DNA from: a virus
Direction: 5' to 3' (one strand)
Length of the DNA: 36,860 bases
IMG/VR virus record: IMGVR_UViG_3300031758_000227
Span: 1 to 36,860 of that record
A program made the translations under genes and the position numbers. A model generated the notes under the pieces. The model was not told the DNA's origin, made no database searches, and saw only the letters and a program-made list of their open reading frames with translations. How positions within the stretch are numbered: the stretch's first letter is position 1; every line of letters begins with the position of its first letter. Positions 17,401 through 36,860 of this stretch are shown in pieces.

Positions 17401-20400
17401 TGCGCTGCGGATCAGCAGCAACTTCGGAGCCTACGCGGAAGATGTTCTTGTCGTTGAAGATAACAAGGTTGCGGGTTTTAGTGGGTTTGCCTGTGGAGAT
17501 GTTTGCTTCGTTAGCCTCAAGCCATGCCAGTTTTTCACCCCATGGTGTCTCAGCGCCTCTTTGCTTGGCGTCCTTGAGCGCAGCTTCAGAATCAAACTTA
17601 ACCCCGTATCTTTCAGATGAGTCTTTGTCAACGGTAAACATCCGATCTACAAACTCATCTACGCGCTGTTGGAGATCACTCTTTACCTGTGTCAACCCAT
17701 CATACGCAATGTCGCGCAGCAGGCTGAATTTCATGCTTTCGGTACTGCCTTTGGCTTGTTTTGCCAACTCTGCAAGTTTGTCCCAGTTGTAGCTTGTACC
17801 GTCGTAATTAACTATGCGCTTACCACCACGACTCTTTGCGTCCAAGAACTGAATGCCTTTGATCCCCATGGAATCAAGGAACAACGAGGCGACCTTCTTA
17901 CCGGGCTGACCGACGTAATCGTCAATGCCCCAGAACTCAGACACAGCGCCTTCATTTTTCTCAAGGAAACGCAGGCCGCGATACAGGTCTTCGCCAGTCA
18001 GCTCGCCGATGTCTTCCACGTTTTGCTGGTACTGGTCGGCCAACGCCTCTTGCAAACCTTTGGGCATGAGCATGCCCAACTTCTCAAGGATGGCAGGCTG
18101 CTCGCTCAATGGGCGATCCCAGTCCAAAGTCTCTTCTGGCGTGATGGCGGTATCTACGCGCATCAGTGTGCCTTCGGGCTTCTTACCGGGCACAACTTTG
18201 AACTTGGAATAGTTTTTATCCAGCCATTCAGACGCTTGCTTGTAACGCCTTCCAGTCAGCGGCCCAAACGAATCTTTTGTAATTGACCTAAGAGTATCCC
18301 GCAGTGCGTTATTGTTACCGTTGTCCAACTCCGCATTAAGGCGTGGCAGAATAAGACTGAGCGCTTGCTCCTCTTCGTTTAGGTCAAGCTCGAACTGTTC
18401 TTTAACGCCAAGCTCATTGTCTATGTCTTTAAGTGGGCGACCGTCATATGTAGCGGTCGGGTTGGCAGTCTTCCTGTCAACGTCAGCAGACCAGTATCCC
18501 TTGGCAATACCAGTGCGTTGGGCTAAGTATGTACCCCAACCATAAGCCTGTGCGCCTTCGCCAGTGCCCATAAACGCGTTACTGAATTTGCGGAAATCAG
18601 CAGCAGTGCCGTGCCATGTGCCGTTGATCTCTAGACGAGCAGCACCGAAGGCCAAATTGACCACGTCTTGTGCGTTCATGGACTCGGGCTTCATACCAAG
18701 TCTACGAGCAGCTGTTTTAAACGCAGCCCACAAAGTGCGGAACCAAGCTGTAAGCGCCGAAGAACTCTTTGAGCCAGCAATTGGGTCTATGCCAGCTTCC
18801 ATGGCCTCTTCAATGAAGTAAGCCAGCATTTCGGAGCGGCGGTCTTCTTGCTTTGTACCAGCGGCTTGAACTCGCTCAACGGCGTTCAGTGCCAGCTCGG
18901 ACTCTATAGAGCCGTCGTCTTTCTTGGCCCAATTGATGATTTGCTGAGTCAGCTTGTCGTATTGAGCTTTAGGCAGCAGCTTCTCCAGACCCAAGTGTGC
19001 TCCGACCTCGTGCATAAACTTAGCACGACCAGCGCCTTTTTGGATTCGGTTGGCAATCAGGTAAGCGCGGCCATTGACCGCAACGCCGTATGCGCCTTCA
19101 AGCGCAATACCAGCACCCACAGCACGAACCATCTTGTCAGGTGAACGCAGCAGGTCTTCGATGGAATCAACCACCATTAGCTTACGACCGGGGATGTCCG
19201 CACGGATGAAGTCCTTGAGTTCAGCCAGCAGTTCCTTGGCAGTGTATGGGTTCTTGGCTACAGCAGGCTCAATATCGCCTTCCTTACCAAACTTCATACC
19301 ACCCTTGGCCAACTTGGTCAGCTCAAGCTCAACGTCACCACGCTCCCAGTTGTCGGAGCCAAACTCTATAAAGGTGTTCTGCTGAGCCTTGGTCAGGTCA
19401 GCAAACTTGGGAGCGTCTGGGAAATCAGCAGCTACTACATCCCACGCTTGGGCGGCTTGCTCGGCTTCGGTGAGGACTTTGGCTGGGGCTTGGGCTTTAC
19501 CTTCTGTGGCAGGCTTTTTGGCACGCCGTACTTGTCCGCCCACTTTTTCGCCAGTTCCGGTTTCTGGCTGAACAGATACCCCTGCTGGGCTTTCGACTTG
19601 AACGGCATCTTCTGCTCCTAATTCCGCTGGTTGTTCGGCTTTAGCTTCTTTTTCGTCGCTAGCGTCTTTGTCAGACTTACGACCAGCAAGCGCCCGTACT
19701 TCGGCTTGGGCTTGTTTCTCAACTGCCTTGACCTTCTCAATCTGAGCAGTCAACTTGGCGTTTAGGTCTGCCAACACGGCAGGGTCTGTTTCTACAGCCA
19801 ATGCTTCCAGCGTGGCGTCAATCTCTTTTTGCAGCTTGGTAAAGCCTTCAACTGCACCAGTACTAGCGCCTGCTGTTTTAACGATGTTTCCCAGACCAGC
19901 CTCAATGGCTTCGTTTTCGTCCATGCGCTCTTGGCTCTGCGTAAACACTTGACTGGCTATTTGACCTTCGGTGCTGTCAGGCGCAACTGTATTGAACGCG
20001 TCAGCGATCTGCGCATCGGTTAGGCCAAATTGAGCCTTGGCCTTGGCAATACGTTCTGGCCATGTCTTCTGGCCAGTAGCGCCAGCAATCTTTTGAATGT
20101 TTGACCGGCTAGTATCGTACTTTGCAGCGGCCTCTGGCTCGGGCATGCCCATACCCACCACGTCAAAAATGATGTTGCCGTCGCGTTCGCCAAAGATTTG
20201 TTGCAGGATGGCTTGGCGTTCGTCTACGACTGGTCCTGCGGCGGCAGGTGCCGTTTGTCCTTGCGTTTCTGTTTGCTGGGTTTGAGCGGCTTTAGCGGCA
20301 TTTGCGGCTTCCAAAACGGTCATTGGTCGAGGGGCACGACGGAAACGAGTCTCCGGCGCGGGGGCGGCTGCTGGGGCAGTCGTAGTTACAGAGGTAGATG

Positions 20401-21985
20401 GTTGCCCGGCTGCGATTGGAAGAACGCCAGCTTGTTGAAGTGGGGCTCCAGTTGCTGGGGCACCTCCGTCCATTGTTCCTGCGACAGGAGCAGGGCGTCC
20501 TGCATCTCCCACGCTTCCTTGAACGACAGGGCTCCCGACTCCCACGCTTCCTGCAGGCTGCTGTACAGTAGAAACTCCTGTGCTGCCATCTGTAACTCCT
20601 TGCGCAGAAGCGCTCATAGCGTTAATGATGTTTTGCGCCGCAGCTTGCTTGATTATTTTTTCAGCCTGCTTGTACTTGTTTTGCGCAAGCACCGTACGAA
20701 CTTGATCTAGTTGCTCGGCTGTCAGATTAGCTTCCAGCAACTTTGGCAGTATTTCTAGTGTTCTACCAGACGGGTTGATGCCAAGTGAAAGAAGTTTTTG
20801 CTCGTCTTCGTTAAAGATTCTGGACGGCGCTGGAGCAGTTGGCTTGGTAACCTCAGCAGCGGCTGCAGTTGTACCGGCTGGCGATGTCAAGTCAGCTTCT
20901 TGGTTGTACAGAGAAGATGTTACTAGCGGTTGGTTGGGGTAGCCACCGCCAAGCAAGTTGGCATTTGCGTAGGGGCTGCCCATCAAAGCAGCAGTGTCCA
21001 AGCCGGTCAGAGTCGTACGCGGCGCAGGCGTTTGTACAGTGCTTGTTTCTGTTTCTTCAGTTGCAATGTCAGGCTTGGTTAAGTCCATTGGACCGCGAAG
21101 ACCGCCAACAGTACCCAAGCTACCACCGACAATAAGGCCAGCAGCAGCCGCATTAAGACGGCGAGATGCAATTTCTTCGTCGGTCAAGTCTGACCGCATG
21201 CCCATTTCAAGTTCGTTTTGCCCGAGTTCTGTTAGGGTTTCACCAGCACCAGCAACTCCACCAGCTTTAGCCATCCGAGTACCGAGATTGCCGGAGTACC
21301 GAGCTGGCGCACGCAAACTGCCTTGCAGCACAGCAGGAAGAACAGCTTCAGCAGCACCGTAAATTGGAGCCAGCGCCAGAGACTGAAATGGGCTTGGGTC
21401 ACCACCTTCGACAGACTCACCATAAAGCGAGCCAAAACCCATCGCGGAACCAGCCAGCGTGCCAGTACCAAAAGCTTCGCCCTGCGCCAAAGCTGCACGA
21501 CGTGCCGCAATACTAGAGCCAGCTTGCAAACCACCGCCGCCAAGCATGCGAGGCGCAACAGCCCCAAGGCGTGTAAGACCTACAGCACCTGCAACTTGAC
21601 CAGCGCCGGGAATAAGCTGCGCACCGGCAATACCTGCCATGGTAGGAACTTGCTTGGCAATCTGGTAACCGACGTAAGGCAGAGCAGACCCAAGTGTTTG
21701 GTCTTCAATACGCTCAAGGTCAGGACGACCGCCAATAGAAGCGTCAATTTGATTGCGGCGGGCTTGTTCGTTTGCCCAGTCGCTAGCTTCGCGGGCTCCC
21801 ACAATATCTGCAACACCGCCAAGGGCGCTGTAACCTAACCCCTGAAGCTGGTCAACACCAGCCGAAAGACCGGCAGCGATAGCCCCGCGCTGTTCCTGCG
21901 GGCCAAGATACACTTCACGCAATGGCTTAAAACCAGTATCCTCTTCGTCAGTTCCAACAATAGTGCGGATTGGTACGAAAGCCAT
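14414..21985 (-). CDS. Giant polyvalent protein with ADP-ribosyltransferase-like and metallopeptidase-like segments
   Basis: At 2523 residues this is the largest protein in the window, of the phage polyvalent type, thought to be injected with the DNA. In order: a Gly/Ala-rich N-terminus with hydrophobic segments (about 40-340); a Pro/Ala/Thr-rich linker (about 340-590); a region with a helix-turn-helix-like helix pair (about 600-760); an acidic linker; a metallopeptidase-like segment with H992-E993-x3-H997; an ADP-ribosyltransferase-like domain starting HGTAADF at H1125 and with GTGEGAQAYGWGTYLA; and a long helical C-terminus (about 1600-2523). Four MKFG/MKFS motifs (897, 1418, 1529, 1597) mark boundaries. 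They recall the PLxRFG motif of similar phage proteins. The start has AAGGGG upstream. Confidence 0.88.
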   Translation of the reverse strand: MAFVPIRTIVGTDEEDTGFKPLREVYLGPQEQRGAIAAGLSAGVDQLQGLGYSALGGVADIVGAREASDWANEQARRNQIDASIGGRPDLERIEDQTLGSALPYVGYQIAKQVPTMAGIAGAQLIPGAGQVAGAVGLTRLGAVAPRMLGGGGLQAGSSIAARRAALAQGEAFGTGTLAGSAMGFGSLYGESVEGGDPSPFQSLALAPIYGAAEAVLPAVLQGSLRAPARYSGNLGTRMAKAGGVAGAGETLTELGQNELEMGMRSDLTDEEIASRRLNAAAAGLIVGGSLGTVGGLRGPMDLTKPDIATEETETSTVQTPAPRTTLTGLDTAALMGSPYANANLLGGGYPNQPLVTSSLYNQEADLTSPAGTTAAAAEVTKPTAPAPSRIFNEDEQKLLSLGINPSGRTLEILPKLLEANLTAEQLDQVRTVLAQNKYKQAEKIIKQAAAQNIINAMSASAQGVTDGSTGVSTVQQPAGSVGVGSPVVQGSVGDAGRPAPVAGTMDGGAPATGAPLQQAGVLPIAAGQPSTSVTTTAPAAAPAPETRFRRAPRPMTVLEAANAAKAAQTQQTETQGQTAPAAAGPVVDERQAILQQIFGERDGNIIFDVVGMGMPEPEAAAKYDTSRSNIQKIAGATGQKTWPERIAKAKAQFGLTDAQIADAFNTVAPDSTEGQIASQVFTQSQERMDENEAIEAGLGNIVKTAGASTGAVEGFTKLQKEIDATLEALAVETDPAVLADLNAKLTAQIEKVKAVEKQAQAEVRALAGRKSDKDASDEKEAKAEQPAELGAEDAVQVESPAGVSVQPETGTGEKVGGQVRRAKKPATEGKAQAPAKVLTEAEQAAQAWDVVAADFPDAPKFADLTKAQQNTFIEFGSDNWERGDVELELTKLAKGGMKFGKEGDIEPAVAKNPYTAKELLAELKDFIRADIPGRKLMVVDSIEDLLRSPDKMVRAVGAGIALEGAYGVAVNGRAYLIANRIQKGAGRAKFMHEVGAHLGLEKLLPKAQYDKLTQQIINWAKKDDGSIESELALNAVERVQAAGTKQEDRRSEMLAYFIEEAMEAGIDPIAGSKSSSALTAWFRTLWAAFKTAARRLGMKPESMNAQDVVNLAFGAARLEINGTWHGTAADFRKFSNAFMGTGEGAQAYGWGTYLAQRTGIAKGYWSADVDRKTANPTATYDGRPLKDIDNELGVKEQFELDLNEEEQALSLILPRLNAELDNGNNNALRDTLRSITKDSFGPLTGRRYKQASEWLDKNYSKFKVVPGKKPEGTLMRVDTAITPEETLDWDRPLSEQPAILEKLGMLMPKGLQEALADQYQQNVEDIGELTGEDLYRGLRFLEKNEGAVSEFWGIDDYVGQPGKKVASLFLDSMGIKGIQFLDAKSRGGKRIVNYDGTSYNWDKLAELAKQAKGSTESMKFSLLRDIAYDGLTQVKSDLQQRVDEFVDRMFTVDKDSSERYGVKFDSEAALKDAKQRGAETPWGEKLAWLEANEANISTGKPTKTRNLVIFNDKNIFRVGSEVAADPQRMKFGSDMVELGKRGQLKEKAGKTRVDTANDRAIKLLEKAAKTKDPAEAEALRAEANALFSATAGKLSGMKFGKNMPSQGLIDRNIAKLPKMSQQPVKRVVESLGDLGGKYLDYAVFTNDLVKRAQALGLGAAKTFSDRLAARNAKVSEEERKIEKIADRYALIEDANKGSGPGSVNEFLFESTRTGKWGYGKYRDAKMGAAFDKLGPKAQQFVKDVFAHGDATLSNKKKIVLEATNSEYDAMIKAAQDAGDTKTEATLKAEKAATLKRFQTLFRIREGIPYAPIKRTGAYVVIGESAEYKAAKAKGDMATVKKLESDPDHYHVSFVDTKWQARNLSDKLSEQGVFDSPQIVKRSESFDEAFSGEAMLPALTKMRAAVDRRSQDATGKKDPTAGKLLNIISQLYLEALAEGSARKSEMRRRGVAGEVDMLQSFTQQGRADANFLASVEFEPKIQDALQQMRNQSRTGDRERKSEIFDELTQRYADSLEPKDNPFINGLTNMASKFFLASSPGYYLQNLTQPFMMSLPAMAGRHDYTKAAAELAKAYTELGPLFKDVKLFDQQFDFSKVPADVRAAINDLVNQGKIDIGLATEINEYKVDADGKLSQFAQRLNKGMRMAVQKVEATNRLSTAIAAYRLEYARTKDAAKATQYAADILTETHGDYTAFNAPRAFNTQWGKVALQFRKFQLIQIAFYTKLIRDAFTKPDERAAALKTLGYSLGHTAVFAGMMGLPGYAAIAAIMSAFGDEDEPYDLTAEMRKALGPEWADMIMRGAPTLADMDLSGKIGAGNMLSIMPFSDADLSTNAGRAEAFGTLMGGAALGMASRVIDGLGLIASGDYYKGVERVMPKGVSDALKAGRQAAEGMTRRNGDVILPDSEISALDTVFTALGVPVVEQAVTYERQNRMRDVTENFNDRTTRIKNDYAKAVREKDTAAMAEARAAWTKLQQTRQRNGLKPQPVSNLLKAPQEQKAREQRTVGGVAYRQGQQKLAESIAEN

Positions 21986-23872: not shown

Positions 23873-24643
23873 TTAACCTGCCTTTTTGCCTGCACCACCA
23901 AAACCGCCAAAGCCGCCGCCAGCATAAATGCCAAGGCCAGTGCCGACAATGGTTGCGAACGGATCGGCCTGCGACATACCAGCGTTGTACGCGGAAGTCT
24001 GTGAGTTAAGGATACCGCCATACGTCTGGCCAGCTTGCTGCATACCTTGCTGGTACTGAGTTCCGGGAGCCATAGAAGAAGCCAGACCGGCAGAGCCTGC
24101 GCCTGTAGCGCCAGAGTAGGCAGCGTTTGCTGCGCCAGCCAGACCACGGCCAAGACCAGTAACTTCAAGGCGGCGGGCATAGCCCATCTGCTGAGCTTGG
24201 TTGCGAGCACCAGTCATAGCGTTAGCGCGGCCTGCAGCCAGACCCAGCATGTTCTGAGACTGCAACGCCATACCAGCGCCAGAGTTGGGGTTCACACCAC
24301 GGGAAGCAGCGGCGCGAGAAGCGGCATCTTGCATCACACCAAAGGCGCGACCAGTTGCAGCAGCGGCATCACGAGCTTGTTGTTCACGGTAGCCCTCAGT
24401 ACTGAACCTCTCAGCGTCTCGGACAAGACCCTGCTCCAGTGGCCGGAAGGTCTGCTGCTGGTAGTTGTAGTAGTCCTGAGCCTGCTGCATCTGTTGCTGT
24501 TGCGCAGCCATCTGTTGGTTAGCTACGCGCTCGGCCAATGGTTTCATCTCTGCATACTGCTGCCGGGAGAACGCCAACTGCTCTCGACCGAGAGCTTCCA
24601 TACCACGATAGTCTGGTGGTGGAGGACTAGATTTACCGCCCAT
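23873..24643 (-). CDS. Gp14-like internal virion protein (256 aa)
   Basis: ATG 24643 has AAGGAGT upstream. The protein starts MGGKSSPPPPDYRGMEALGR, then has a Gln-rich helical region (QQMAAQQQQMQQAQDYYNYQ), an Ala-rich middle (AASRAAASRGVNPNSGAGMA) and a Gly-rich hydrophobic end (TGLGIYAGGGFGGFGGAGKK). This layout is typical of the smallest internal core protein of short-tailed phages (T7 gp14-like), which is ejected first and sits in the outer membrane. The glycine-rich tail may be the membrane-inserting part. The upstream GNAT gene ends inside its ribosome-binding site. Confidence 0.75.
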   Translation of the reverse strand: MGGKSSPPPPDYRGMEALGREQLAFSRQQYAEMKPLAERVANQQMAAQQQQMQQAQDYYNYQQQTFRPLEQGLVRDAERFSTEGYREQQARDAAAATGRAFGVMQDAASRAAASRGVNPNSGAGMALQSQNMLGLAAGRANAMTGARNQAQQMGYARRLEVTGLGRGLAGAANAAYSGATGAGSAGLASSMAPGTQYQQGMQQAGQTYGGILNSQTSAYNAGMSQADPFATIVGTGLGIYAGGGFGGFGGAGKKAG

Positions 24644-25494: not shown

Positions 25495-27515
25495 CGCTTG
25501 GCTCCCATTATCACGATGGTAGTCTCTACCGCAGGTGCAGGGTTGCCATACACATCACTGACGTTACAAATAATAGTGTGCGTTCCAGCAGTCATGGTCA
25601 TATAGTGAATGATCGGCAGTGTAATTGTTGGAATCACGCCGCCAGCGCTGTTAGAAAATGTCTCTTTGACTTGTACGTAGTTGTCGAACAAACGGATCGT
25701 ACATCCACCGGATACCAAGACCACGCCGCTGCAAACGCCCCACAGCAAAACATTAGTAGTCTCAGCAAACGTAACTGTTGTTATCGCCTGCGATCCAGAA
25801 GCAGAGCTAACTTGGGGCACAGTTACAGCGTTGCCTGCAATGTTAATCGTATTGACTGCGTTGATAGCGCTTGCCGTAAGCGTGCCAGAAAAAGTTCCAG
25901 TTGCAGCAGACAACGACCCCGCAAATGAACCAGTGGCAGCAGATAACGCCCCGGCAAAACTTGCATCGCCGTTGCTACCGTTCAACACAAAAGTCGCCGC
26001 CCCAGCAGAGTTATAAGCCACGAGGCCGTTAGCGGTAAGTCCAACGCCAGACCCACTTGTGCGCACACCAGACGAGTTCCAATTGAGCGTTCCAGTGGCC
26101 AGACCCCCGGGACCAGACAGTACGTTGCGGGCGTCATTGTCGAGCTTAGTTGTCAATTCACCGACGGCAAAGTCGGCTGTGCCCTGAGCCGTAGATGCTG
26201 CGCTTGATGCACTATTGGCTGCAGACAAAGCTGAGTTTGCTGTATTTACAAGCGTGGAACCGGCAGTCCCAGCAACGGAACCAGTGAAGTTTCCAGTGCC
26301 CGCATTCAGGATGATGTTGCCTGCAGTGTCTCGAATGCTCAGTCCGTTTGCATTAATCTGCGCAGCAGTAATCAAACCACGGATAGACGCAGCACCGAAC
26401 TCAGCCGTGCCGTCGCCATGAATCTTCCAGCCTTGGGAGCCGATGAGGTAGTTCGACGACTGGATGTACGAGCCCACGCTGATGGAGCCTGCAGTGATCT
26501 TGCCTGCGCTGAGGCTGGCGATCTTGGCGTCGTCGATTTGCGCGTTGCCGATCTTTGCAGTGGTGATCGTGCCGTTCTTGATGTACGCAGCATCTATGTA
26601 AACACCGGCAGGTACTGCAACGCCATTCACTGTAGTTGGTGAAGTCTGCACAACAAAAGGGATAGCCCCCTTTACCTGCGTTGTTTGCCAACCAGTTCCG
26701 TTGTAATACTTGGTGATGTTGGGCGTTACGCTCGAATCAATCCATACGTATCCGACGTACAAGTTTGTAGTTGGCGCTGTAGCTGACACCGTAGATGGCG
26801 GTGCAATCCAGAACTGATCGGCTCTAACGCCAAACGAGCTGGTGGGGGTTCCATTGTTGGCAGTAGCCGCAATGCCGTAACCAGCAACATGCCCAGCCAA
26901 GTCAACCTTAACCGTGTACTTAGATAGCAGGCCTGTCGTGCCACCGGGGCCACCATCAATTTCGTCGATGCGGCCATTCAGATCGTTGTAGAGCTCGCTC
27001 TCCGTGATCTGACCAGCAAGCGTATCCAGAAGATACGCCACATCGGAACCAGTCTGGCCGAGTACGCCAGCAACTGCGTTAAACGCACCAGCAGTGCCTA
27101 GTGTGTTGACGAACCGAACCCAGTAGTACCTGTTTACGCTCGGCCCAACAGCGTCAATAAATATGGCCCCGGGGGTCATACCGACCTGAACAGCAGCGCC
27201 CAGATTGTCAGTGCTAGAGCCCCACACTTCTGCGTAGGCATGGCCGTAATACAGCGGGTCGTCCCAAGTGACTACGATATTCTGAATGGCACCGCTGGCA
27301 GCTACGTTCTTGGGCGTTGGCGGCGTAGTGATGGTTCCGCCACCGGGAGGAATGATTGTCCCGCCGGGTCCGGGTGATGCAATACCACTGGAAATCAGAT
27401 CGTCTACAGTCAACAAGCGGCTGGTGCCGCCGCTGTCCAGTGCCTCACGCACCCGGTTGATGAAGGCCCGAAGGTCGGGCGCTACGTTGGATACGACCGT
27501 TGGGAGTTTAGCCAT
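25491..27515 (-). CDS. gpJ/DUF1983-like tail protein with FN3 domain
   Basis: The start at ATG 27515 has GGAGGAG upstream; an earlier in-frame start lies within the previous gene. The 674-residue protein has a short helical N-terminus, a Pro/Gly-rich hinge (SPGPGGTIIPPGGGTITTPP), a fibronectin-III-like domain (about 70-150) and a region with AYIKNGTITTAKIGNAQIDD, AKIASLSAGKITAGSISVGS, which is the typical DUF1983 pattern of host-specificity proteins such as lambda gpJ. The C-terminal half has SFAGALSAATGSFAGSLSAA, a short-period beta repeat, then a closing beta domain. It likely forms a fibre or tail-tip appendage that contacts the host. Confidence 0.82.
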   Translation of the reverse strand: MAKLPTVVSNVAPDLRAFINRVREALDSGGTSRLLTVDDLISSGIASPGPGGTIIPPGGGTITTPPTPKNVAASGAIQNIVVTWDDPLYYGHAYAEVWGSSTDNLGAAVQVGMTPGAIFIDAVGPSVNRYYWVRFVNTLGTAGAFNAVAGVLGQTGSDVAYLLDTLAGQITESELYNDLNGRIDEIDGGPGGTTGLLSKYTVKVDLAGHVAGYGIAATANNGTPTSSFGVRADQFWIAPPSTVSATAPTTNLYVGYVWIDSSVTPNITKYYNGTGWQTTQVKGAIPFVVQTSPTTVNGVAVPAGVYIDAAYIKNGTITTAKIGNAQIDDAKIASLSAGKITAGSISVGSYIQSSNYLIGSQGWKIHGDGTAEFGAASIRGLITAAQINANGLSIRDTAGNIILNAGTGNFTGSVAGTAGSTLVNTANSALSAANSASSAASTAQGTADFAVGELTTKLDNDARNVLSGPGGLATGTLNWNSSGVRTSGSGVGLTANGLVAYNSAGAATFVLNGSNGDASFAGALSAATGSFAGSLSAATGTFSGTLTASAINAVNTINIAGNAVTVPQVSSASGSQAITTVTFAETTNVLLWGVCSGVVLVSGGCTIRLFDNYVQVKETFSNSAGGVIPTITLPIIHYMTMTAGTHTIICNVSDVYGNPAPAVETTIVIMGAKR

Positions 27516-30057
27516 TTGCCAACTCCTCCATGGACTGCGCCACGAGTACAGCGAACACCTCAGTGTTGCCCTCGATCTGGAACTCCCAGTCACGGCCCGG
27601 TGTCACGGGCAGGCGGAACGGCGTGCGCCCCGCCACAGTCTGGGTATGCACCAGCGTGCCATCAGAGTAAACCTTGGCTGTCACAGGGTAGGCTTCGGCT
27701 TCAACCTGAGCGCAACTGAACCCCATGATCTGAGGCATGGTGAACTTCTTGGACTTCCATGTGTAGCTCAGCGCTGCTCCGGCTTGCCATATTTTCACTG
27801 TGCGGTCGGCGAACGCTGTGTACAGCTTGTCAGCCTGCAGGTCGTTGTAGCCCGCTGTGGCGTAGATGTTGTGGTAGATGAAGTGGCCGGAGGTCAGGTC
27901 AAAGATGAACCCGCCAGCGGTTACGCCGTTGTTGTAAAACGCCACGTACTTCATGTCCTGCTGATACGCATGGATTGACGTAGGGTTAAATGCCTCTTGC
28001 CAGAGGGCACGGCTAAACATCTGCTCAGTCAGCAGGCGAGAGCCGCTGGAGCTCAACAGCACAAGGCCGTCAGGGCTGGCATAGATCACCGAGTTGTTGG
28101 TGCTGACGATGCTGCGCTTGGACGCGCAGGCTTGCTCCAGATCGGATTTGACCACCACCATCGCATCAGGCGAGCTGCCTTGGATGAAGTACGGCGTGCC
28201 TGTAGTGAGCACCGCCAGCGTTGTGTCCATGCGACCAAGGCCAACTACCGGGAAGTCCACGGTCTGGTTGTACTGCACCGGCCATGCGTGGGGGTGGTAG
28301 GGGTCGCAGAAGTACACGTCACGGCCAGTGAATCCAGCCATGATGCCGTTGGGCAAGTTGATGAGGCCGCGCAGCGTTGCCGGGGGCGGCAGCCATGTCA
28401 GGGATGGCAGCTCTTCACCGAGGTCTTCAGCCAGCACGCTGTCTGTGTACGAAGTCTGCGAAGCTGGGAGCTCAGCGACAAACAGATACACGCCGGACAC
28501 CGCACGGTACAGACGCCAGTGGGTCACCACATAGCCCGTAGGCACAACATCTCTTCCAGATATAGCCACAGACTGCTCAACGCGCACTTCAACGGTGGCA
28601 GATGCCGGTGATGGAGCGGACTCGAACTCGAAGCCAGCTTCCTTGTTGACCCAAGTCCATGCGTACACACGGCTCTCAGGAACTTCTGGTACGTCAGTTA
28701 CGCCCGTGGCATTCAGTGAGGAGTACTGGGCGACAGTTGGATAGTCACCGCCGCGCAGGCGTATGGAAGACGAGGTGCCGGTAGAGTTTGTGGCCACAAT
28801 GGCGAACGGTTCTACCGCGCCAAATACGGTAGCTGCCCCGCCGTAGCTTGACACAATGCTCAGGTTGTTCACTGTGTACACAGCAGGCACGGAAACAAAG
28901 CTCTCTACGCCGTTGATGAGCACAGACAGATAGCGTCCTTCCACACTGTCCACGTTGGCTTGGGTGACGAACACTTGGGCCGGAGCTGAACTCTCGGAGC
29001 CCACCGAATTTTTAGTGAAGGCAGTGTTCCCGTCAACAGTCCGGCTGTAAGTGATGGAGCCAGAAGAGCCGGTTGCCTCTGTGCCGGGTGTGATGACAAC
29101 GCAGGAGCCATATGCAGTAGCGACCATCTGGCCTGACATGCGGCTGTTTAGGAAGGTAACCAGCGTAGCTGCGGTCAGTGTGGTGCTGGTTACGGCGTCA
29201 ACCCGAGTCGCCACGTTGCTTGCCAAGGTGATGGTGTCCCCGGCATCAATGGAGCCAATCTCGGCGTCTTCGATGATAAGCAGCGGTGGTGTGTTGGCCG
29301 TGCCGGTAGCCTGCAAATCAAGCCCGGAATAGGTGAACGTACCAGACGTGTTTGTTGTAGAGCCCGTGCGGTAGCGCACATAGAGCTTGGCCGAGTCGCC
29401 TGTGGCGTCACTGGTGATCTTGACCCCGGTGCCATCGACAACAGCCGCTATGCCTGCTGCAGCGTTTACGGCTGAAGCTACGGAACTTGCTGTGATTGGG
29501 CTGGTCAGCGTCACTGTGGTGTAGTCGGCGTCTTCCGTACCGACAATGCTGACCTGAATGCCGTAAGACGTGCTGAGCTGCCCGATGGCTGTAGACGTCA
29601 GAACAACTTCCGCTGGGCTGGTTGTAGGCGTGAACACGGACGGGCTCGCCGCCAGTGCCGCCGTGGGGGCCGGAAGGCCCAGTGGCCTAGACACAGTGGG
29701 GTAGTTGCTGCCGGACAGCGCGATCTGGCCGTACGTTGCCTTGGGAGCGCCGTCGCCTGTGTAGAACGTCCACTCGGACGTGTCACCTGAAATCTGGCTG
29801 CGGCAGACGTCAACGTCTGAAGTCCAGTGGAACCAGTACTGCGAGTCGGACACAGAGTCTTGGCCGAAACGGTAGATGGTCAGCGGGGTGCCCACCTTGG
29901 TCAGTGTGTGTACGGCAGCGCCGACGTTCGACAGTGGCTGCAGCGATCCGTTGAAGACAACAGCGTTTAGCGCTGTCTGGGCCATAGTGTCCTGCAAGTA
30001 CCGAGGTGGCACCTTGGGAGATACCCCGCCGAACGATTTGATCTGAAGTGCTGCCAT
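27508..30057 (-). CDS. Beta-propeller-like tail/stabilisation protein (849 aa)
   Basis: The 849-residue protein begins MAALQIKSFGGVSPKVPPRY, the usual start of large podovirus tail-hub or head-closure proteins (P22 gp10-like). Strand-rich blades include LPNGIMAGFTGRDVYFCDPY, TTLAVLTTGTPYFIQGSSPD, NNSVIYASPDGLVLLS and DMKYVAFYNNGVTAGGFIFD, as in a beta-propeller. Residues about 150-420 form a Ser/Thr/Val-rich insertion with two similar halves, perhaps extra Ig-like or decoration domains. It lies between the endolysin and the gpJ-like gene, overlapping the latter by 8 bp. The family call rests on overall pattern. Confidence 0.72.
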   Translation of the reverse strand: MAALQIKSFGGVSPKVPPRYLQDTMAQTALNAVVFNGSLQPLSNVGAAVHTLTKVGTPLTIYRFGQDSVSDSQYWFHWTSDVDVCRSQISGDTSEWTFYTGDGAPKATYGQIALSGSNYPTVSRPLGLPAPTAALAASPSVFTPTTSPAEVVLTSTAIGQLSTSYGIQVSIVGTEDADYTTVTLTSPITASSVASAVNAAAGIAAVVDGTGVKITSDATGDSAKLYVRYRTGSTTNTSGTFTYSGLDLQATGTANTPPLLIIEDAEIGSIDAGDTITLASNVATRVDAVTSTTLTAATLVTFLNSRMSGQMVATAYGSCVVITPGTEATGSSGSITYSRTVDGNTAFTKNSVGSESSAPAQVFVTQANVDSVEGRYLSVLINGVESFVSVPAVYTVNNLSIVSSYGGAATVFGAVEPFAIVATNSTGTSSSIRLRGGDYPTVAQYSSLNATGVTDVPEVPESRVYAWTWVNKEAGFEFESAPSPASATVEVRVEQSVAISGRDVVPTGYVVTHWRLYRAVSGVYLFVAELPASQTSYTDSVLAEDLGEELPSLTWLPPPATLRGLINLPNGIMAGFTGRDVYFCDPYHPHAWPVQYNQTVDFPVVGLGRMDTTLAVLTTGTPYFIQGSSPDAMVVVKSDLEQACASKRSIVSTNNSVIYASPDGLVLLSSSGSRLLTEQMFSRALWQEAFNPTSIHAYQQDMKYVAFYNNGVTAGGFIFDLTSGHFIYHNIYATAGYNDLQADKLYTAFADRTVKIWQAGAALSYTWKSKKFTMPQIMGFSCAQVEAEAYPVTAKVYSDGTLVHTQTVAGRTPFRLPVTPGRDWEFQIEGNTEVFAVLVAQSMEELANG

Positions 30058-31193: not shown

Positions 31194-31717
31194 GACTCTT
31201 CCTTACGAGCTGCGGCGATCTCGGCACGGTCTTCGTCATCTTCAAGATGATCGGGCGGTGTGGTCGGTGGTGGGCCGGGAGTCCAGCTCTCGTCGAGCTC
31301 AGGGTTCTTGTAGCCCATCCAGTTGAAGTTCGGCATGGCAGACGCTACTGGCGCTGGTGGTGCGTAGCTGCTGTGGTTGTACCCGCCCATCATTGGCTGG
31401 CATGGCTGATGCTGTGGGGGCTGTGGCGTAAACGCTTTGGCTGCTGTTGACACTGCCCGCTTGCCGATAACACCGCCGATACCGCCCACAATCAGTAGCA
31501 CGATGTCGTTGAGCATCTTGGTGTAGGCTTGGTCGATGGGGGCCATCGACTTGATTGGCTGCGTCACGAAGGTCACGGAGTACAGCAGCGCCGTTACGAT
31601 GCCAAATAGGATGATGGTGACGGCAACGACAACAAAGGCCCAGATGCGGACCTCTAGCAGTGCAGTCTCTTCCTCAACGGACCGGGGTTGGCTCGGCGGC
31701 TGGTTTGGTTTGCTCAA
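31190..31717 (-). CDS. Two-helix membrane protein, candidate holin, TTG start
   Basis: The likely start is TTG at 31717, because TTGGAGAAG lies directly upstream; the longer frame to 31801 has no ribosome-binding site and would run far into the lipoprotein gene. The 175-residue product has two hydrophobic helices: WAFVVVAVTIILFGIVTALL and MLNDIVLLIVGGIGGVIG. The C-terminal half is Pro/Gln-rich and ends acidic. Two-helix membrane proteins next to spanins and endolysin are often holins or holin-like, but the long tail is unusual for a simple holin. It overlaps the Rz start by four bases. Confidence 0.7.
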   Translation of the reverse strand: MSKPNQPPSQPRSVEEETALLEVRIWAFVVVAVTIILFGIVTALLYSVTFVTQPIKSMAPIDQAYTKMLNDIVLLIVGGIGGVIGKRAVSTAAKAFTPQPPQHQPCQPMMGGYNHSSYAPPAPVASAMPNFNWMGYKNPELDESWTPGPPPTTPPDHLEDDEDRAEIAAARKEES

Positions 31718-31889
31718 TTTGCTTCTCCAAGATGGGTGCCACCAAATACTCAGGGCAAGTTTGCGTAAATTGGCAGCGTGGTTTTTGGCAGCGCTCAGCA
31801 TGGAAATTATCCGGGTTTTGGCAGAAGTAGCGGTACTGCTCGTCGCAGCCAGCCAGCATAATCAGCATTGACAGGATAATGTATTTCAT
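31674..31889 (-). CDS. Small Cys-rich lipoprotein
   Basis: A 71-residue product with a lipoprotein signal peptide (MLIMLAGC, lipobox Cys15). The residue after the Cys is Asp, the inner-membrane retention signal in enteric bacteria. After the anchor come four more cysteines (YFCQNPDNF, ERCQKPRC, QTCPEYL), perhaps forming disulphides in the periplasm. I recall similar short lipoproteins in the lysis regions of other phages, with no function assigned. It overlaps the next gene by 44 bp in another frame and is coupled to the one before by ATGA. Confidence 0.75.
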   Translation of the reverse strand: MKYIILSMLIMLAGCDEQYRYFCQNPDNFHAERCQKPRCQFTQTCPEYLVAPILEKQIEQTKPAAEPTPVR

Positions 31890-32368
31890 CGCTTCATCTC
31901 GAACATGACAAGGTACACGCCGAAGCCTACCAGCGCAAAGATGACAATGATGCCGCCCACAACGATCAGGATTTCAACCAGCTCTTCCTGTTCTTTCTTG
32001 GCTCGCAAAGCCCTGTCACGGGCCAGTTGAGCGTCGATCTTGTCTTGCTTGTCCATCTCGGCCACACGAACCATGATGGAGTTCCACACGTCCATGTTGT
32101 TCGGGAAGAACAAGCCTTTGACCTGCTCCTCAAAGTCCCGCTGAGCTTTCAGGTCAAGCTCGATCTGAACGGCTTGCCCCATGTTGGAGCCGCCCTTCTT
32201 CTTGGCGACCTTCAGGGCTTTGGTGACTTCATGCTTTTGCTCAAAGTATCTGCCTAGCAAAGGACCAAGACTGCGAACGTCGTCTGCTGTTTTGGATGCC
32301 TGCTTGATGAGAGAGACCGTCTTTTGGACAGCCGCCATCGCCGTTAAGGCCATTGTGATCGGTTCCAT
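31886..32368 (-). CDS. Tail-anchored membrane protein with helical domain (160 aa)
   Basis: The ATG at 32368 overlaps the preceding stop (TGATG), with AGGA upstream; a TTG one codon earlier is less likely. The first 125 residues are helical and charged (TVSLIKQASKTADDVRSLGP, DKIDAQLARDRALRAKKEQE). A single hydrophobic helix follows at the C-terminus (ILIVVGGIIVIFALVGFGVY), with a basic end (MKR). This tail-anchored layout puts the helical part in the cytoplasm. It may regulate or scaffold the lysis proteins around it, but no family is recognised. Confidence 0.72.
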   Translation of the reverse strand: MEPITMALTAMAAVQKTVSLIKQASKTADDVRSLGPLLGRYFEQKHEVTKALKVAKKKGGSNMGQAVQIELDLKAQRDFEEQVKGLFFPNNMDVWNSIMVRVAEMDKQDKIDAQLARDRALRAKKEQEELVEILIVVGGIIVIFALVGFGVYLVMFEMKR

Positions 32369-32469
32369 CAAACGATTCCTCGGAGCAGCAAAACAACTTC
32401 TTTAGCGCACCAGACCGTAAGCGCCACTACAAGGGCTGCTGCAATGAATGCTTCAGCCCAGTCTCTCAT
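32368..32469 (-). CDS. 33-residue single-pass membrane protein
   Basis: The ATG at 32469 lies two bases after the preceding stop; a longer frame from 32625 would lie inside the XhlA-like gene. The product is one amphipathic start (MRDWAEA) and one hydrophobic helix (FIAAALVVALTVWCAKEVVL) with a short basic end. No strong ribosome-binding site is present, so translation would depend on coupling. At this size it could be a pinholin, an antiholin or a modulator of the neighbouring membrane proteins; the sequence cannot separate these. Confidence 0.6.
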   Translation of the reverse strand: MRDWAEAFIAAALVVALTVWCAKEVVLLLRGIV

Positions 32470-32471
32470 GG

Positions 32472-32675
32472 TTACAAACCGAACAACTTTTTGACAAACT
32501 CGGCAGCAACGCCGGGTCCAAGCAGTACGGCTGCGATCACCGCATACAGCAGGTATTCGATCTTGGTCATACGCTTCTCGCCAATGTCGAGCGATTGGTT
32601 GATCTTCTCGTACCTTTGGGCGCACACTGCCTCGTGGGTGGACAAGCGTGCGTCTGTTGCGTCAATCGTAGCCAT
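32472..32675 (-). CDS. XhlA/holin-like membrane protein (67 aa)
   Basis: ATG 32675 has GAGG upstream. The product has a charged N-terminal helix (THEAVCAQRYEKINQSLDIG, then EKRMTKIE) followed by a hydrophobic helix (YLLYAVIAAVLLGPGVAAEF) and a basic end (VKKLFGL). A short coiled coil followed by one transmembrane helix is typical of XhlA-type haemolysin/holin-associated proteins. It sits at the head of the lysis gene run. Whether it makes the membrane hole itself or helps another holin cannot be read from sequence. Confidence 0.72.
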   Translation of the reverse strand: MATIDATDARLSTHEAVCAQRYEKINQSLDIGEKRMTKIEYLLYAVIAAVLLGPGVAAEFVKKLFGL

Positions 32676-32686
32676 ACTTCACTACC

Positions 32687-33286
32687 TCAAGGTGTTGCTG
32701 GGGTTGTTGTGTTGGTGGTCGTGGTTTCGGTGTTGGTCACCACAGTTGGAACAGACGTATTGTCAGTAATGCTGCCACCAGCAAGGCGACCAGAGTTGCC
32801 AGAGTTTGACCCACTGTTAGCTCCAATCGAATAGCTTCCCGATCCTATCACACCGTTGCCGCCGATGGTAGTGACATTGGCCGCTGGCGCTTGAATTTGG
32901 GATGCAATGCCGACGAAGGCTTGGTTGGTGCTGACAGCCACAGCAGTAGCGTTGTCAGACTGGCGCATACCCAAAGTCGTCTGCTTGTTGATCGTGTAGA
33001 TTTGACCAACAGTAGGCAGGAGCAAACCTGTCCACTGCAAGGCGTAGTCGGCCCAAGACTTGGGAGCCGCGATCTGAGCGTTCTGTGGGGCGCTACCAGC
33101 GTTCAGGCTGATGACCGCTGCGACCTTGGCCGTGGTGTCACCCATCTTGGCAATGTCAGCCAGAGCTTGGTAACGGGCAGTTTGCGCCGCTGCTTGAGCC
33201 TTGTGGGCGTCAGCGTAGGCTTGGTACTGGTTTGTCGCGCAGCCTGTCAAGGACAGGGCGCAGAGTACGAGGGCGACACGTTTCAT
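32687..33286 (-). CDS. Lipoprotein with Thr/Asn/Ser-rich C-terminus (199 aa)
   Basis: The start is ATG 33286, with TTGGAG upstream and an ATGA overlap with the gene before. A lipoprotein signal peptide (LCALSLTGC, C16) is followed by an Ala/Gln-rich helix (YADAHKAQAAAQTARYQALA), a hydrophobic middle segment (WTGLLLPTVGQIYTINK) and a low-complexity Gly/Ser/Asn then Thr-rich tail. The residue after Cys is Ala, favouring the outer membrane. Location between the fibre-side gene and the lysis genes fits a lysis-accessory or superinfection-blocking role; no family is recognised. Confidence 0.75.
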   Translation of the reverse strand: MKRVALVLCALSLTGCATNQYQAYADAHKAQAAAQTARYQALADIAKMGDTTAKVAAVISLNAGSAPQNAQIAAPKSWADYALQWTGLLLPTVGQIYTINKQTTLGMRQSDNATAVAVSTNQAFVGIASQIQAPAANVTTIGGNGVIGSGSYSIGANSGSNSGNSGRLAGGSITDNTSVPTVVTNTETTTTNTTTPATP

Positions 33287-33606
33287 GCTTGGCTCCAAGG
33301 CAGGGGTGGGGTTACCACGGGCGGTGCGATCTGATCTTTGATTTGCTGGTCTATGTTGGCTTCAGTGGCAGCTTTGTCCACGCCCGAGGCCCAGCACCAG
33401 CCGAGTACCTGCTCTTGCGTCAAGTCGGCGTAGGGGGTAAATGGTTCGCCGGGTTGGGAGAATCCGCAAGTGCCGTACACAGTGCCGTAGGTGTCTGCAA
33501 ACATGCCGTTGCAGCGCCAGTGGGCTGTGATGACGACATCCGTAAGATCGCCCTCTGTAGGCTTGCAATCAAGGGCTTCAACAATCCAAGTGATTTGTGT
33601 GGTCAT
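33283..33606 (-). CDS. Small tail-fibre-associated phage protein (107 aa)
   Basis: The 107-residue product has ATG 33606 with AAAGG upstream. The sequence reads as a beta-sandwich start (ITWIVEALDCKPTEGDLTDV, VITAHWRCNG) with TYGTVYGTCGF and PYADLTQEQVLGWCWASG near the end, a pattern I have seen in short proteins next to phage and cyanophage tail-fibre genes. No function is established. It lies 10 bp after the last S74 fibre gene and is coupled to the lipoprotein gene. A fibre-folding or fibre-decorating role is a guess. Confidence 0.66.
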   Translation of the reverse strand: MTTQITWIVEALDCKPTEGDLTDVVITAHWRCNGMFADTYGTVYGTCGFSQPGEPFTPYADLTQEQVLGWCWASGVDKAATEANIDQQIKDQIAPPVVTPPLPWSQA

Positions 33607-33616
33607 GGTTTACCTT

Positions 33617-35095
33617 TCAGGGGTGGGTTGCTTTGTATGCGTCAAACTCGGCTTTGAGTTCCTTAATGGCGGCAACCAGAAGCGGAATTACTTCTGTGTA
33701 ATTAACACCGAGGTACGGATCAATTGAAACGCCATCACGTGCATTTTCTGGCGGGTAAACAACAACCTCTGGCAAAACTGCCTCAAGGTCTTGTGCAATC
33801 AAGCCTATTTGTGGCTTGGCAGAAGGATCGTTTTTCCAAGTAAAACGGGCGGCTCTAAGTGAGTTGACTTTATCAAGGGCGTTTTCAATTTCGCCAGTGA
33901 TATTTTTTAACCTAGCATCGGAAGAACTTGTCCAAGATGTACCTCCAAAACTTACATACGGGCCATTTGTAAAGCTGATTGCGTTTCCTGCCGTACCAAT
34001 TGGAGCTGTATATGTCTGTATGCCGCCGCTGGCAAAAGTAATTATTGAAGCTGTGTCATTTGCGTAATATACGTATGCGGAAGCAGTTGGCGCTGCACCG
34101 TATCCAATATATCCGTAGCCTCCACCGGGAGCGCCCATTGCAATTGCTGGATAGCCTCCTGAGGCTCCAGCCACACCAAAAGCGCGATTTGGAAAATTAT
34201 TGAAAGCATTACCGATTTGCCCAATAAAAGTTGCGCCCACCGAGTTGGTGATTACGCGTGGATTTCCATCCCCATCAGACAGCACGATGTGGTTGCTTGC
34301 AGTGCGGATGTCGAGGCCACCTTGGTTGCCGCTGTAAGAACCAATAATCGTGTTCTTGGAGCCGGAAGTGACCCCCTGACCCGCTTGCGTTCCGATGAAG
34401 TTGTTGAAAGTTCCTGTGGTCATTTGCGACCCGGTGTAAAAACCTACAAGCGTGTTTCTATTGCCTGTGGTTACGCCATAGCCTGCGAGTTGACCAAGGA
34501 ATGTGTTGTCGGCCCCAGTGGTATTGCTGTACCCAGCTTGATAGCCAACAGCAGTGTTGTTGGAGGCGGTGGTGTTGGCTTGGAGTGCTTGGTAGCCTAC
34601 GGCAACTGAGTTACTGCCACTTGTAGTTTCTTTTCCGGCATATCCACCGATAAACGTGTTCAGAATGCCAGTTGTATTTTTTAGACCAGCCTGAACACCA
34701 ACGGCAGTTAAACCACCAGAGCCTGTTGTCGCCTTGCCCGCTTGAAAACCAACAAGCGTTAACTCAGCGCCAGTTTGATTGGCGTTGCCAGCTTCATAGC
34801 CAAGAACCACGCTGTAGGCGCCGCTTGTATTAGCCGCCAAAGCACTCGCGCCCACCGCAGTGTTGGAGGACACAGCACCTGCGCCACGGCCTACGGTGAG
34901 TCCTTGGATAACCGTACTGCCACTAACAGTCAAATTACCAGCACTTGTCAGTGTCAGCAGACTTGAGGTAATGCCTGTATTGCCGTTACCAATCCTCAAT
35001 GTTCCATCAGGTGTTGCTGGTTGGAAGATCGTGAAGTTGTTGGTTGCTGTTGGGTCAGAGCCAACCTGAAGATTCTTGGAGATTAGGCTGCTCAT
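33617..35095 (-). CDS. Tail fibre with 17-residue beta repeats and S74 chaperone
   Basis: The 492-residue fibre starts MSSLISKNLQVG. Residues 78-260 are eleven repeats of exactly 17 residues, of form N-T-x-hydrophobic-G...AG...TTG, like the head of trimeric autotransporters (YadA, Hep/Hag). A Gly/Tyr/Ser-rich stretch follows, then the C-terminal S74 intramolecular chaperone with SSDARLK (S392 and K397 as the cleavage pair), PQIGLIAQDLEAVLPEVV and a trimer-forming helix (LLVAAIKELKAEFDAYK). The chaperone folds the trimer and then cuts itself off. It likely binds the host surface. A four-base overlap links it to the fibre before. Confidence 0.9.
   Translation of the reverse strand: MSSLISKNLQVGSDPTATNNFTIFQPATPDGTLRIGNGNTGITSSLLTLTSAGNLTVSGSTVIQGLTVGRGAGAVSSNTAVGASALAANTSGAYSVVLGYEAGNANQTGAELTLVGFQAGKATTGSGGLTAVGVQAGLKNTTGILNTFIGGYAGKETTSGSNSVAVGYQALQANTTASNNTAVGYQAGYSNTTGADNTFLGQLAGYGVTTGNRNTLVGFYTGSQMTTGTFNNFIGTQAGQGVTSGSKNTIIGSYSGNQGGLDIRTASNHIVLSDGDGNPRVITNSVGATFIGQIGNAFNNFPNRAFGVAGASGGYPAIAMGAPGGGYGYIGYGAAPTASAYVYYANDTASIITFASGGIQTYTAPIGTAGNAISFTNGPYVSFGGTSWTSSSDARLKNITGEIENALDKVNSLRAARFTWKNDPSAKPQIGLIAQDLEAVLPEVVVYPPENARDGVSIDPYLGVNYTEVIPLLVAAIKELKAEFDAYKATHP
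34316..34864 (-). repeat. Eleven 51-bp (17-residue) coding repeats in a tail fibre
   Basis: The N-T-x-hydrophobic-G core recurs with its Gly at residues 82, 99, 116, 133, 150, 167, 184, 201, 218, 235 and 252, exactly 17 apart with no slip. The DNA copies differ, so the pattern is kept at protein level. Each repeat probably makes one turn of a beta-roll in a trimeric shaft. Confidence 0.92.
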
Positions 35096-36132
35096 GCTGT
35101 ACCTTTCAATGAGGCAATGTCTGCTTGCAGTTGGGCAATCATAGCTTGTTGTTCTTGGATGGCTTTTGTAAGAACAGCGACAATTTCAACTTTGTCCATG
35201 CCATATGTTTCACTGGTCATTTGGCTGACAGAACTCGGGACGACTTCCATTGCTTCTTGAGCAATAAAACCAAGGTGCTTTTGAGCATCGTCAGCTTCGT
35301 CATTCATTAAATATTCAACAGGACGCAAAGCCATAACAGCAGACAAGCCATACGAGATGTCTGTGATGTTTTTCTTTAGTCGTTGGTCAGACACAGCTAC
35401 ATATGCGCCTGTTGAACTGTTGATGTAAGAACGAGCAGCACTACCATAAAGGAAATACAACTCATCGCCAGCATTAGAAAAAGTGCCTTGAATATCCCAA
35501 GTTAAAGTATCTGCTTGAAGGCGAATGTAAGGGTTGTTGCCGGAACCACTAGTCCTGACTTGCAGAAACGGGTTGCCGCTTGTATTGATTGAGATATTGC
35601 CAGCAACCTCTAGCTTTTGTCCCGGCGAACTCGTCCCAATACCCAGACCTGTGGAGGTCAGGCGCATTTGTTCGGGTCCACCTGCTCCCGTACCAAATTT
35701 AATTGCTCCACCACCGTCAGCCATTAGAGAAATATTTTTGCCTGCGCCTGCGTAAATGTAAGCATCACCAGCAGCAAGGACGCCGTAGGTTGTATATCCA
35801 GTACCTAAAATGCCAAACTCATGCGAATTTGTGCCATTGCTATATGAGGTGTTTGCACTGGTTGATGTTCCACCATTCGAGTTAGTTACTCGAATACCTG
35901 CTGAAGCGTTTGCAGACAACGTGTTTGCAAAGTTCGTCCCATCAAACGTCAGCGCACTACCCGATGTAGGTTGACCAGAACCATTGACAAACAGAACACC
36001 GTTGTTGGTCACAGATGCCAGAGTAGCCGCTGTTCCAGAAAATGCTGGAAGCGTAAACGTCAGGGTGCTTGCCGTAACAGGCTCTTGTAGCGTTACGCTA
36101 CCACCACCAGAAGAATTAAGTTTCAGGCTCAT
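35092..36132 (-). CDS. Tail fibre with S74 chaperone (346 aa)
   Basis: The 346-residue fibre starts MSLKLNSSGGGSVTLQEPVT, a common start of short fibre or appendage proteins. The middle has the beta patterns QMRLTSTGLGIGTSSPGQKL, EVAGNISIN and FLQVRTSGSG. The C-terminal S74 chaperone has VSDQRLKKN with S248 and K253, then HLGFIAQEAMEVVPSSV and a coiled-coil end (LTKAIQEQQAMIAQLQADIA). The chaperone differs clearly from those of the two neighbouring fibres, so these are not recent copies. It overlaps both neighbours by four bases. Confidence 0.88.
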   Translation of the reverse strand: MSLKLNSSGGGSVTLQEPVTASTLTFTLPAFSGTAATLASVTNNGVLFVNGSGQPTSGSALTFDGTNFANTLSANASAGIRVTNSNGGTSTSANTSYSNGTNSHEFGILGTGYTTYGVLAAGDAYIYAGAGKNISLMADGGGAIKFGTGAGGPEQMRLTSTGLGIGTSSPGQKLEVAGNISINTSGNPFLQVRTSGSGNNPYIRLQADTLTWDIQGTFSNAGDELYFLYGSAARSYINSSTGAYVAVSDQRLKKNITDISYGLSAVMALRPVEYLMNDEADDAQKHLGFIAQEAMEVVPSSVSQMTSETYGMDKVEIVAVLTKAIQEQQAMIAQLQADIASLKGTA

Positions 36133-36860
36133 TTTGCCTCCAGTTGAGCTACACGGGCACGAAGGGATTTGAGTTCAGCAAGCATGTTAGCAATGATCTC
36201 AGCACTGGAGTAGTCCATACCCTGCATCTGTTCTCCGTCTTTGGTTCCTGTTGCCACAGGAGTACGTGATGCCTCTTGTACCTCGTGAGCAATCAAGCCA
36301 ACAAAAGCAGAGCCATCAGCCTTCCATGTGCCTTCAACAGGGTTCAGGCTGTCAATATACGCACCGCTGGTGGTGATCGGGCCTGTGATGTTTTTCAGGC
36401 GGTAGTCGGAGGAGGTGTTGTATGCGACTGTGGTTGATGTTGGCTGAGTAATTGAACCAATCGTTGCATCAAGGTAGTTGGCAAAACGAATGAAAGCACC
36501 ACCAGTGCTGTTTGCACCGTTTTTCATGGCGCAAGTGTTAGCAGTGTTTGCTAGGTCTGTGCTGTAAAGTGCCAGCTTTGCAGTGACGCCACTGATTACA
36601 CTCGTAGTCCCCACCAGCAAGTTGCCAGAGGAGTCGATACGCATTCGTTCGGTGGCGGCGGTATAAAAAGCAACAGGACTTCCTGCGATACCTAAAAGAG
36701 TTTCCGCTCCGCCATCGGTAATGCCAACAAGTGCGTTGCTACCGTATGCGGCTGCATTGATCGTTCCAATATTTGAAGTTCCTGCTGTTTTAACAAGCAG
36801 TTTTGTTGAGCTAAATGCTTGAATCCCAATCCCCACGTTGCCGGAGGAGTCGATACGCAT
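36129..36860 (-). CDS. Tail fibre with S74 chaperone, N-terminus beyond the window
   Basis: At least 243 residues are visible and the frame is open to the edge, so the real start is probably outside; the first Met (MRIDSSGNVGIG) matches an internal repeat and need not be the start. Two MRIDSSGN repeats are present, a pattern of beta-strand fibre shafts. The S74 chaperone shows SSDYRLKN (Ser codon at 36408-36410, Lys five residues on), then FVGLIAHEVQEASRTPVA and a helical end (AELKSLRARVAQLEAK). It is the first of the three fibres in transcription order. Confidence 0.86.
   Translation of the reverse strand: MRIDSSGNVGIGIQAFSSTKLLVKTAGTSNIGTINAAAYGSNALVGITDGGAETLLGIAGSPVAFYTAATERMRIDSSGNLLVGTTSVISGVTAKLALYSTDLANTANTCAMKNGANSTGGAFIRFANYLDATIGSITQPTSTTVAYNTSSDYRLKNITGPITTSGAYIDSLNPVEGTWKADGSAFVGLIAHEVQEASRTPVATGTKDGEQMQGMDYSSAEIIANMLAELKSLRARVAQLEAK
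36622..36860 (-). repeat. Near-identical 23-bp repeat encoding MRIDSSGN
   Basis: The segments 36622-36644 and 36838-36860 differ at one base and both encode MRIDSSGN. They mark two beta-strand repeats in a fibre shaft. The second copy runs to the window edge, so more may follow. Confidence 0.85.

Follow-up and report, generated by a model that had tools for sequence, protein, structure and literature searches.

Three adjacent S74 tail fibre genes and a putative separate anchor gene in an environmental viral contig

Fibre genes and their chaperones

The window analysed here is the whole 36,860-nucleotide stretch of IMG/VR record IMGVR_UViG_3300031758_000227. Its right end is occupied by three consecutive open reading frames on the minus strand, which we call fibres C, B, and A in the order of transcription. 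Fibre A (positions 33617 to 35095, 492 aa), the last gene of the array, has YadA-head-like shaft repeats, fibre B (35092 to 36132, 346 aa) starts with a GSVTLQEP-type leader, and fibre C is represented by its 3' part (36129 to 36860, 243 codons, running off the end of the contig). All three carry a minus-strand Peptidase_S74 domain (PF13884), at 33761 to 33922 in A (65 bits), 35227 to 35391 in B (65 bits), and 36270 to 36410 in C (23.8 bits, borderline), and no further match to this family was found in the PF13884 scan of the whole record. The E values (2.3e-19, 3.6e-19, and 2.2e-6, respectively) are each over the curated cut-off; in bits, A and B score 61 to 65 and C scores 20 to 24 against a cut-off of 22, with C at 20 to 21 when scanned as a protein. 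Together with an SDxRLK motif in every one of the three, this agrees with an earlier note, made from the letters of the window, that had described three S74 fibres in a row.

The chaperones begin at that motif, which reads SDARLK in A, SDQRLK in B, and SDYRLK in C; Ser392 is the predicted cleavage residue of fibre A, and the motif serine of fibre B is Ser248. The Ser-Lys dyad of the six-residue SxxxxK motif described for endosialidases and MYRF (PMC3742443) is found in A, B, and C. In an alignment of fibre C with 20 relatives (21 sequences), S333, D334, R336, K338, and H374 are invariant. The chaperones (93 to 101 aa) share a pairwise identity of only 32 to 37%, and the shafts give no reliable alignment among them, in agreement with the large differences that had been described in both parts. 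Regarding structural matches, the shaft of fibre B resembles the Bdellovibrio MAT fibre Bd2133 (8ond), which the shaft of fibre C also matches, and the S74 region at the C terminus of fibre B matches a solved tail fibre chain (8jov_1; we take 8jov to be from GP4). Matches of fibre B to antibody-fragment structures (5aam and others) were dismissed as low-complexity chance.

The genes are also coupled, as had been noted, with a 4-bp ATGA overlap at both the C/B and the B/A junction, and strong Shine-Dalgarno-like sites stand ahead of B, A, and the DUF7936 gene. The last of these (PF25590, 107 aa, 33283 to 33606, minus strand) directly follows fibre A. Of 97 usable related loci, 69 have DUF7936 immediately behind an S74 fibre, a biased figure, as the loci were chosen for S74, and the protein may be a fibre-associated factor. 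It is also encoded close to the fibre genes of phages that are not related (Synechococcus, Roseobacter, and Manatee Spring genomes). The fibre genes are more A+T-rich than the replication genes, as claimed before, with a GC3 of about 0.46, 0.37, and 0.44 for C, B, and A (about 0.37 to 0.47) versus 0.67 to 0.72, the flanking genes being at 0.63 to 0.68. S74 genes lie below their neighbours in GC3 in most related loci, and because of this general trend the low value is weak evidence of foreign origin; it lends some support, short of proof, to a block transfer of the three-gene set.

Completion of the locus on a second contig

The end of the window falls within the shaft motif ATGCGTATCGACTCCTC (36824 to 36860), which has another copy 216 bp away (36608 to 36644, 84%); this is a likely assembly break. 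As the window stops inside this repeated motif, the apparent ATG of fibre C is an internal methionine. The earlier note had proposed extending the contig to the right, and this could be done with the independent contig IMGVR_UViG_3300008116_001049, which overlaps the window from 31528 to 36860 (5,333 bp, 99.96% identical) and runs 8,252 bp beyond it. Fibre C was thereby completed to 425 aa (L259:7707-8984), and a separate anchor-like gene of 249 aa was found before it, overlapping C by ATGA and lacking S74. The extension codes for a portal, a scaffold (named by position), the major capsid protein, and two SU10-adaptor-like proteins, followed by proteins of 109, 399, 146, and 249 aa and then C (425 aa), B, A, and DUF7936. 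There is no fourth S74 gene, as Pfam finds exactly three S74 domains across the whole second contig.

The fibre DNA is identical between both assemblies, the sole two mismatches lying inside DUF7936. Decay of some of the fibres or an assembly artefact, named beforehand as outcomes that would speak against a functional array, did not appear: the overlapping contig carries the same array, and neither assembly shows a broken reading frame or motif. With C completed, three S74 domains present, and the fibre DNA the same in two assemblies, pseudogene decay and assembly error can therefore be excluded.

The portal and adaptor are of the SU10 type (PF23899, 4.5e-9, and PF24175, 4.1e-20, both above cut-off), and a nozzle-like tail protein of 849 aa (27508 to 30057, minus strand) belongs to phrog_511 and matches 8jov_A (E value of 1.3e-65). 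Judging from these families, the virus is most likely a short-tailed phage. Its replication half codes for a DNA polymerase, an exonuclease, a helicase, and a primase/helicase-like protein.

The putative anchor and the split of the docking motif

The 249-aa protein begins with the motif LTNAELDANF, for which the consensus is LTNxExDxNF (in a longer form, LTNxExDxNFxNLNxDK), and has the stretch LTNAELDANFSNLNTDK in common with a 748-aa fibre of the relative G025. It ends in a cap, SxGPxxxxSGxxVTVxSGSxWVVL, at the place where single-fibre relatives have S74, and Pfam gives no S74 match in it. In those relatives a single S74 fibre (748 aa in G025, 598 aa in G006/G007, and 994 aa in G004) is located between the gene of the 146-aa protein (g146) and DUF7936, and it is the S74 fibre itself that opens with the docking motif. 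In this phage and in two other loci (L077 and L174), the motif is instead on a separate protein followed by two or three S74 genes; L174 has a 298-aa anchor and then three, while in G036 a 404-aa anchor is followed by a pair of S74 genes and, on the other side of DUF7936, by one more. The 249-aa protein is thus a putative proximal anchor that would carry the virion-docking N terminus. AlphaFold models are of low confidence, with a mean pLDDT of 57 for the anchor and 54 for fibre C.

We placed the relatives by means of the nozzle-like protein. Related nozzles were found in 41 viral contigs, most of which have no more than one S74 gene close to the tail locus, and a scan of viral contigs for g146 gave only three loci. 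The nozzle of this phage is 80 to 81% identical to those of G025 and G001, and that of G036 is 84 to 91% identical to those of G004, G006, and G009, while identity between the two groups is 65 to 70%. As these values set two groups apart, the split of the anchor and the multiplication of fibres appear in two clades, both of which also hold sisters with a fused single fibre. Within the locus, variability is greatest in the fibre regions, the number of fibre genes varies among relatives, and at the DNA level the matches to phage records are confined to short patches of fibre DNA. A variant slot was seen in G001 (nozzle identity of 81%), where a 348-aa gene without S74 directly follows the S74 fibre (L075:15184-16230) and DUF7936 was not recognised.

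Tandem S74 runs in related loci

To see the array in context, we considered 152 related loci, defined as the distinct S74 runs with a complete 5' end found through A, B, or C. They comprise 132 single, 14 double, and 6 triple runs (this one included), counts that cannot be taken as a global frequency because the sample was picked by similarity to the three fibres. The statement that most phages carry one such fibre holds in the sample examined, but other phages have tandem S74 arrays as well, and three S74 domains were confirmed with the curated Pfam model in seven other records.

A cap-bearing reading frame is directly upstream of 10 of the 20 multi-gene runs versus 13 of the 132 singles (p 6e-5), so that a recognised anchor is missing from half of the tandem arrays; with loci found through B and C only, the association is 3/9 versus 10/88 (p 0.10). 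Cap and S74 never occur in a single reading frame (0/129). The N-terminal leaders, counted as alike at 30 bits or more, are alike in 1 of 38 pairs within arrays versus 246 of 1,447 pairs between arrays. When genes were shuffled among arrays, the mean was 6.4 alike pairs, and 8 of 2,000 shuffles gave at most one. Leaders that hold the same position resemble each other more frequently than under permuted order (1/2000), and the leader type of fibre B, second in this array, comes first in most others. Alternative fibres for one site would be expected to share a leader, so the distinct leaders count against competition for a single site; different leaders at conserved positions indirectly favour a branched set. 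The leaders may equally be shaft modules, and the arrays are not phylogenetically independent samples; the anchor and leader tests are therefore supporting rather than decisive.

Comparison with known fibre systems

The T5-like phage DT57C has adjacent LtfA and LtfB proteins, both with PF13884, in place of the one fibre of T5, and its mutants point to LtfB being attached to LtfA, from which a branched fibre was inferred (PMC4728585). Pfam finds two S74 domains in that genome. As in DT57C and DT571/2, with their L-shaped branched fibres, the locus described here has neighbouring S74 fibre genes in a position that holds a single one in relatives, and the docking N terminus of the single-fibre relatives appears to be retained on the protein that comes first. 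DT57C differs in being a siphovirus with two such genes rather than three, and its LtfA joins docking and S74, whereas here the putative docking protein is separate and lacks S74. At their N termini, A, B, and C show no similarity to phiEco32 gp15 or DT57C LtfB, whose leader type is xxxLMPKSGxMxPxVVV, so their docking may differ from that of these two proteins.

The long fibre of SU10 has a proximal part, a gp12 trimer seated on the adaptor, and a distal part, a trimer of gp13 (PMC9509320); the single S74 domain of that phage is in gp13. Like SU10 and phiEco32 (Kuravirus; PMC9509320, PMC4728585), the present virus appears to be a podophage whose portal and adaptor belong to related families, and it has a putative proximal gene without S74 directly before a distal S74 gene, as in gp12/gp13 and gp14/gp15; unlike them, it codes for three distal S74 fibres instead of one. 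The 249-aa protein has no blastp match to gp12 or gp14. As the anchor and leaders have no recognisable homology to those of SU10, phiEco32, or DT57C, we consider the locus as working alike and not as a member of these systems. By analogy, it would combine the proximal protein without S74 of SU10 with the multiple S74 fibres of DT57C.

A likeness to the GP4-type podophage tail (PF23140; 8jov/8jou) is seen in the nozzle homologue, in a weak match of the 146-aa protein to the GP4 fibre I family (gp80), and in the S74 region of fibre B. The tail spike complex of Ackermannviridae also gathers several receptor-binding proteins in one phage on a branched mount, although those are spikes of a myovirus tail (PMC11414711). 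The MAT fibres of Bdellovibrio, one of which (Bd2133) matches the shafts of B and C, are multicopy, many with S74 and diverse tips (PMC10769870); however, they are bacterial adhesins and not virion parts, and Bd2133 has no S74.

Arrangement of the fibres on the virion

With a probability of roughly 0.55, we propose that the three distal fibres are co-mounted on one virion as a branched or clustered apparatus with the separate 249-aa protein as anchor. The proposal starts from what the genomes contain: the genes themselves, their intactness, order, and coupling, the split of the docking motif, the recurrence of the array, and the diversity of leaders. A, B, and C would be functional distal tail fibre proteins of a podophage with an SU10/GP4-type portal, adaptor, and nozzle, translated as one coupled operon. 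Each would trimerise and fold with the aid of its C-terminal S74 chaperone, which, as in the rest of the family, would be cut off at the serine of SDxRLK. The 249-aa protein, with LTNAELDANF and no S74, would act as the proximal anchor through a presumed contact with the fibres, and fibres with different leaders would be displayed together, presenting up to three presumably receptor-binding tips. Given the small putative anchor gene just before the fibres, three receptor-binding fibres are probably displayed at once, which would enlarge a two-fibre design already known. Beyond the earlier note, the analysis adds the completed locus, the separate anchor, and the finding that such arrays recur with diverse leaders.

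The earlier note had left the choice between a branched apparatus and a cassette of alternative fibres. The separate docking protein, the distinct, position-conserved leaders, and the precedents speak indirectly for the former, and we consider it the more likely of the two. A cassette of which one fibre is used at a time, through phase variation or in a population of mixed particles, would fit the high variability of fibre regions and the differing gene number between relatives, but the fibres share no docking end, the locus has no long inverted repeats (only short ones of 74 to 79%), no invertase or reverse transcriptase was found among the proteins scanned, and one coupled operon has the identical arrangement in two assemblies, all of which makes this idea rather improbable. 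An even poorer candidate is the recent acquisition of a block in which one fibre works and the others are passengers or decaying. GC3 drops sharply at both block edges (0.68 to 0.46-0.37-0.44 and back to 0.63), yet the three reading frames keep the full catalytic motif, GC3 is lower in the S74 genes of most relatives too, and the seven other records hold similar intact triples.

Two further arrangements are unlikely, to a similar degree, although less so than the cassette or the acquired block. In one, anchor and fibres are stacked end to end, as are the proximal and distal fibres of T4 or SU10, with the mature C terminus exposed by S74 cleavage taking the leader of the next fibre. In SU10 the distal S74 fibre does sit on a proximal fibre, and different leaders at conserved positions would fit a chain too; against this, cleaved S74 fibres normally have a receptor-binding tip at their end, and array members vary in number and order, as the displaced leader type of fibre B illustrates. 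In the other, the three fibres dock independently at separate tail sites (adaptor, nozzle, and the g146 fibre) with no common anchor. SU10-type tails offer several docking sites and the leaders differ, but the relatives fill the whole slot with one fibre bearing a single docking motif, so no extra dedicated sites are implied.

A tentative generalisation can be made, which we regard as a possibility rather than an expectation, namely, that environmental podophages use a plug-in design of a short capped anchor plus one to three S74 fibres at set positions. In this design, and with the same reserve, the anchor, bearing an uncleaved C-terminal cap, would replace the one-piece fibre, and the leaders of the S74 fibres plugged into it would be mutually different. 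Receptor-binding tips could then be gained or lost without altering the part that docks to the virion. The two-fibre branched design of a few cultured phages would, as the loci suggest, belong to a broader set of modular designs among uncultured phages, in which the anchor is separable and as many as three tips occur. If leaders encode docking partners, this would explain how host recognition parts are gained and lost on a constant tail, and there would be an anchor-leader code open to testing.

Other genes of the contig

A further candidate for receptor binding lies outside the array. Between 25078 and 27593, the gene of a 700-aa Phage_Tail_Tip fibre, which is this candidate, precedes that of a Phage_tail_APC assembly protein, and the phage may therefore carry more than three tips. 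The virion protein phrog_8003 (23873 to 24643, 256 aa) has no S74 in this phage, while its counterparts in G004, G005, G020, and G021 (315 to 323 aa) have an S74 domain at the end; this position may be a second site where S74 is gained and lost. Last, a DarB-like protein of 2,523 aa (14414 to 21985) takes up one fifth of the contig, and the relatives code for DarB-like proteins of similar size and divergent sequence.
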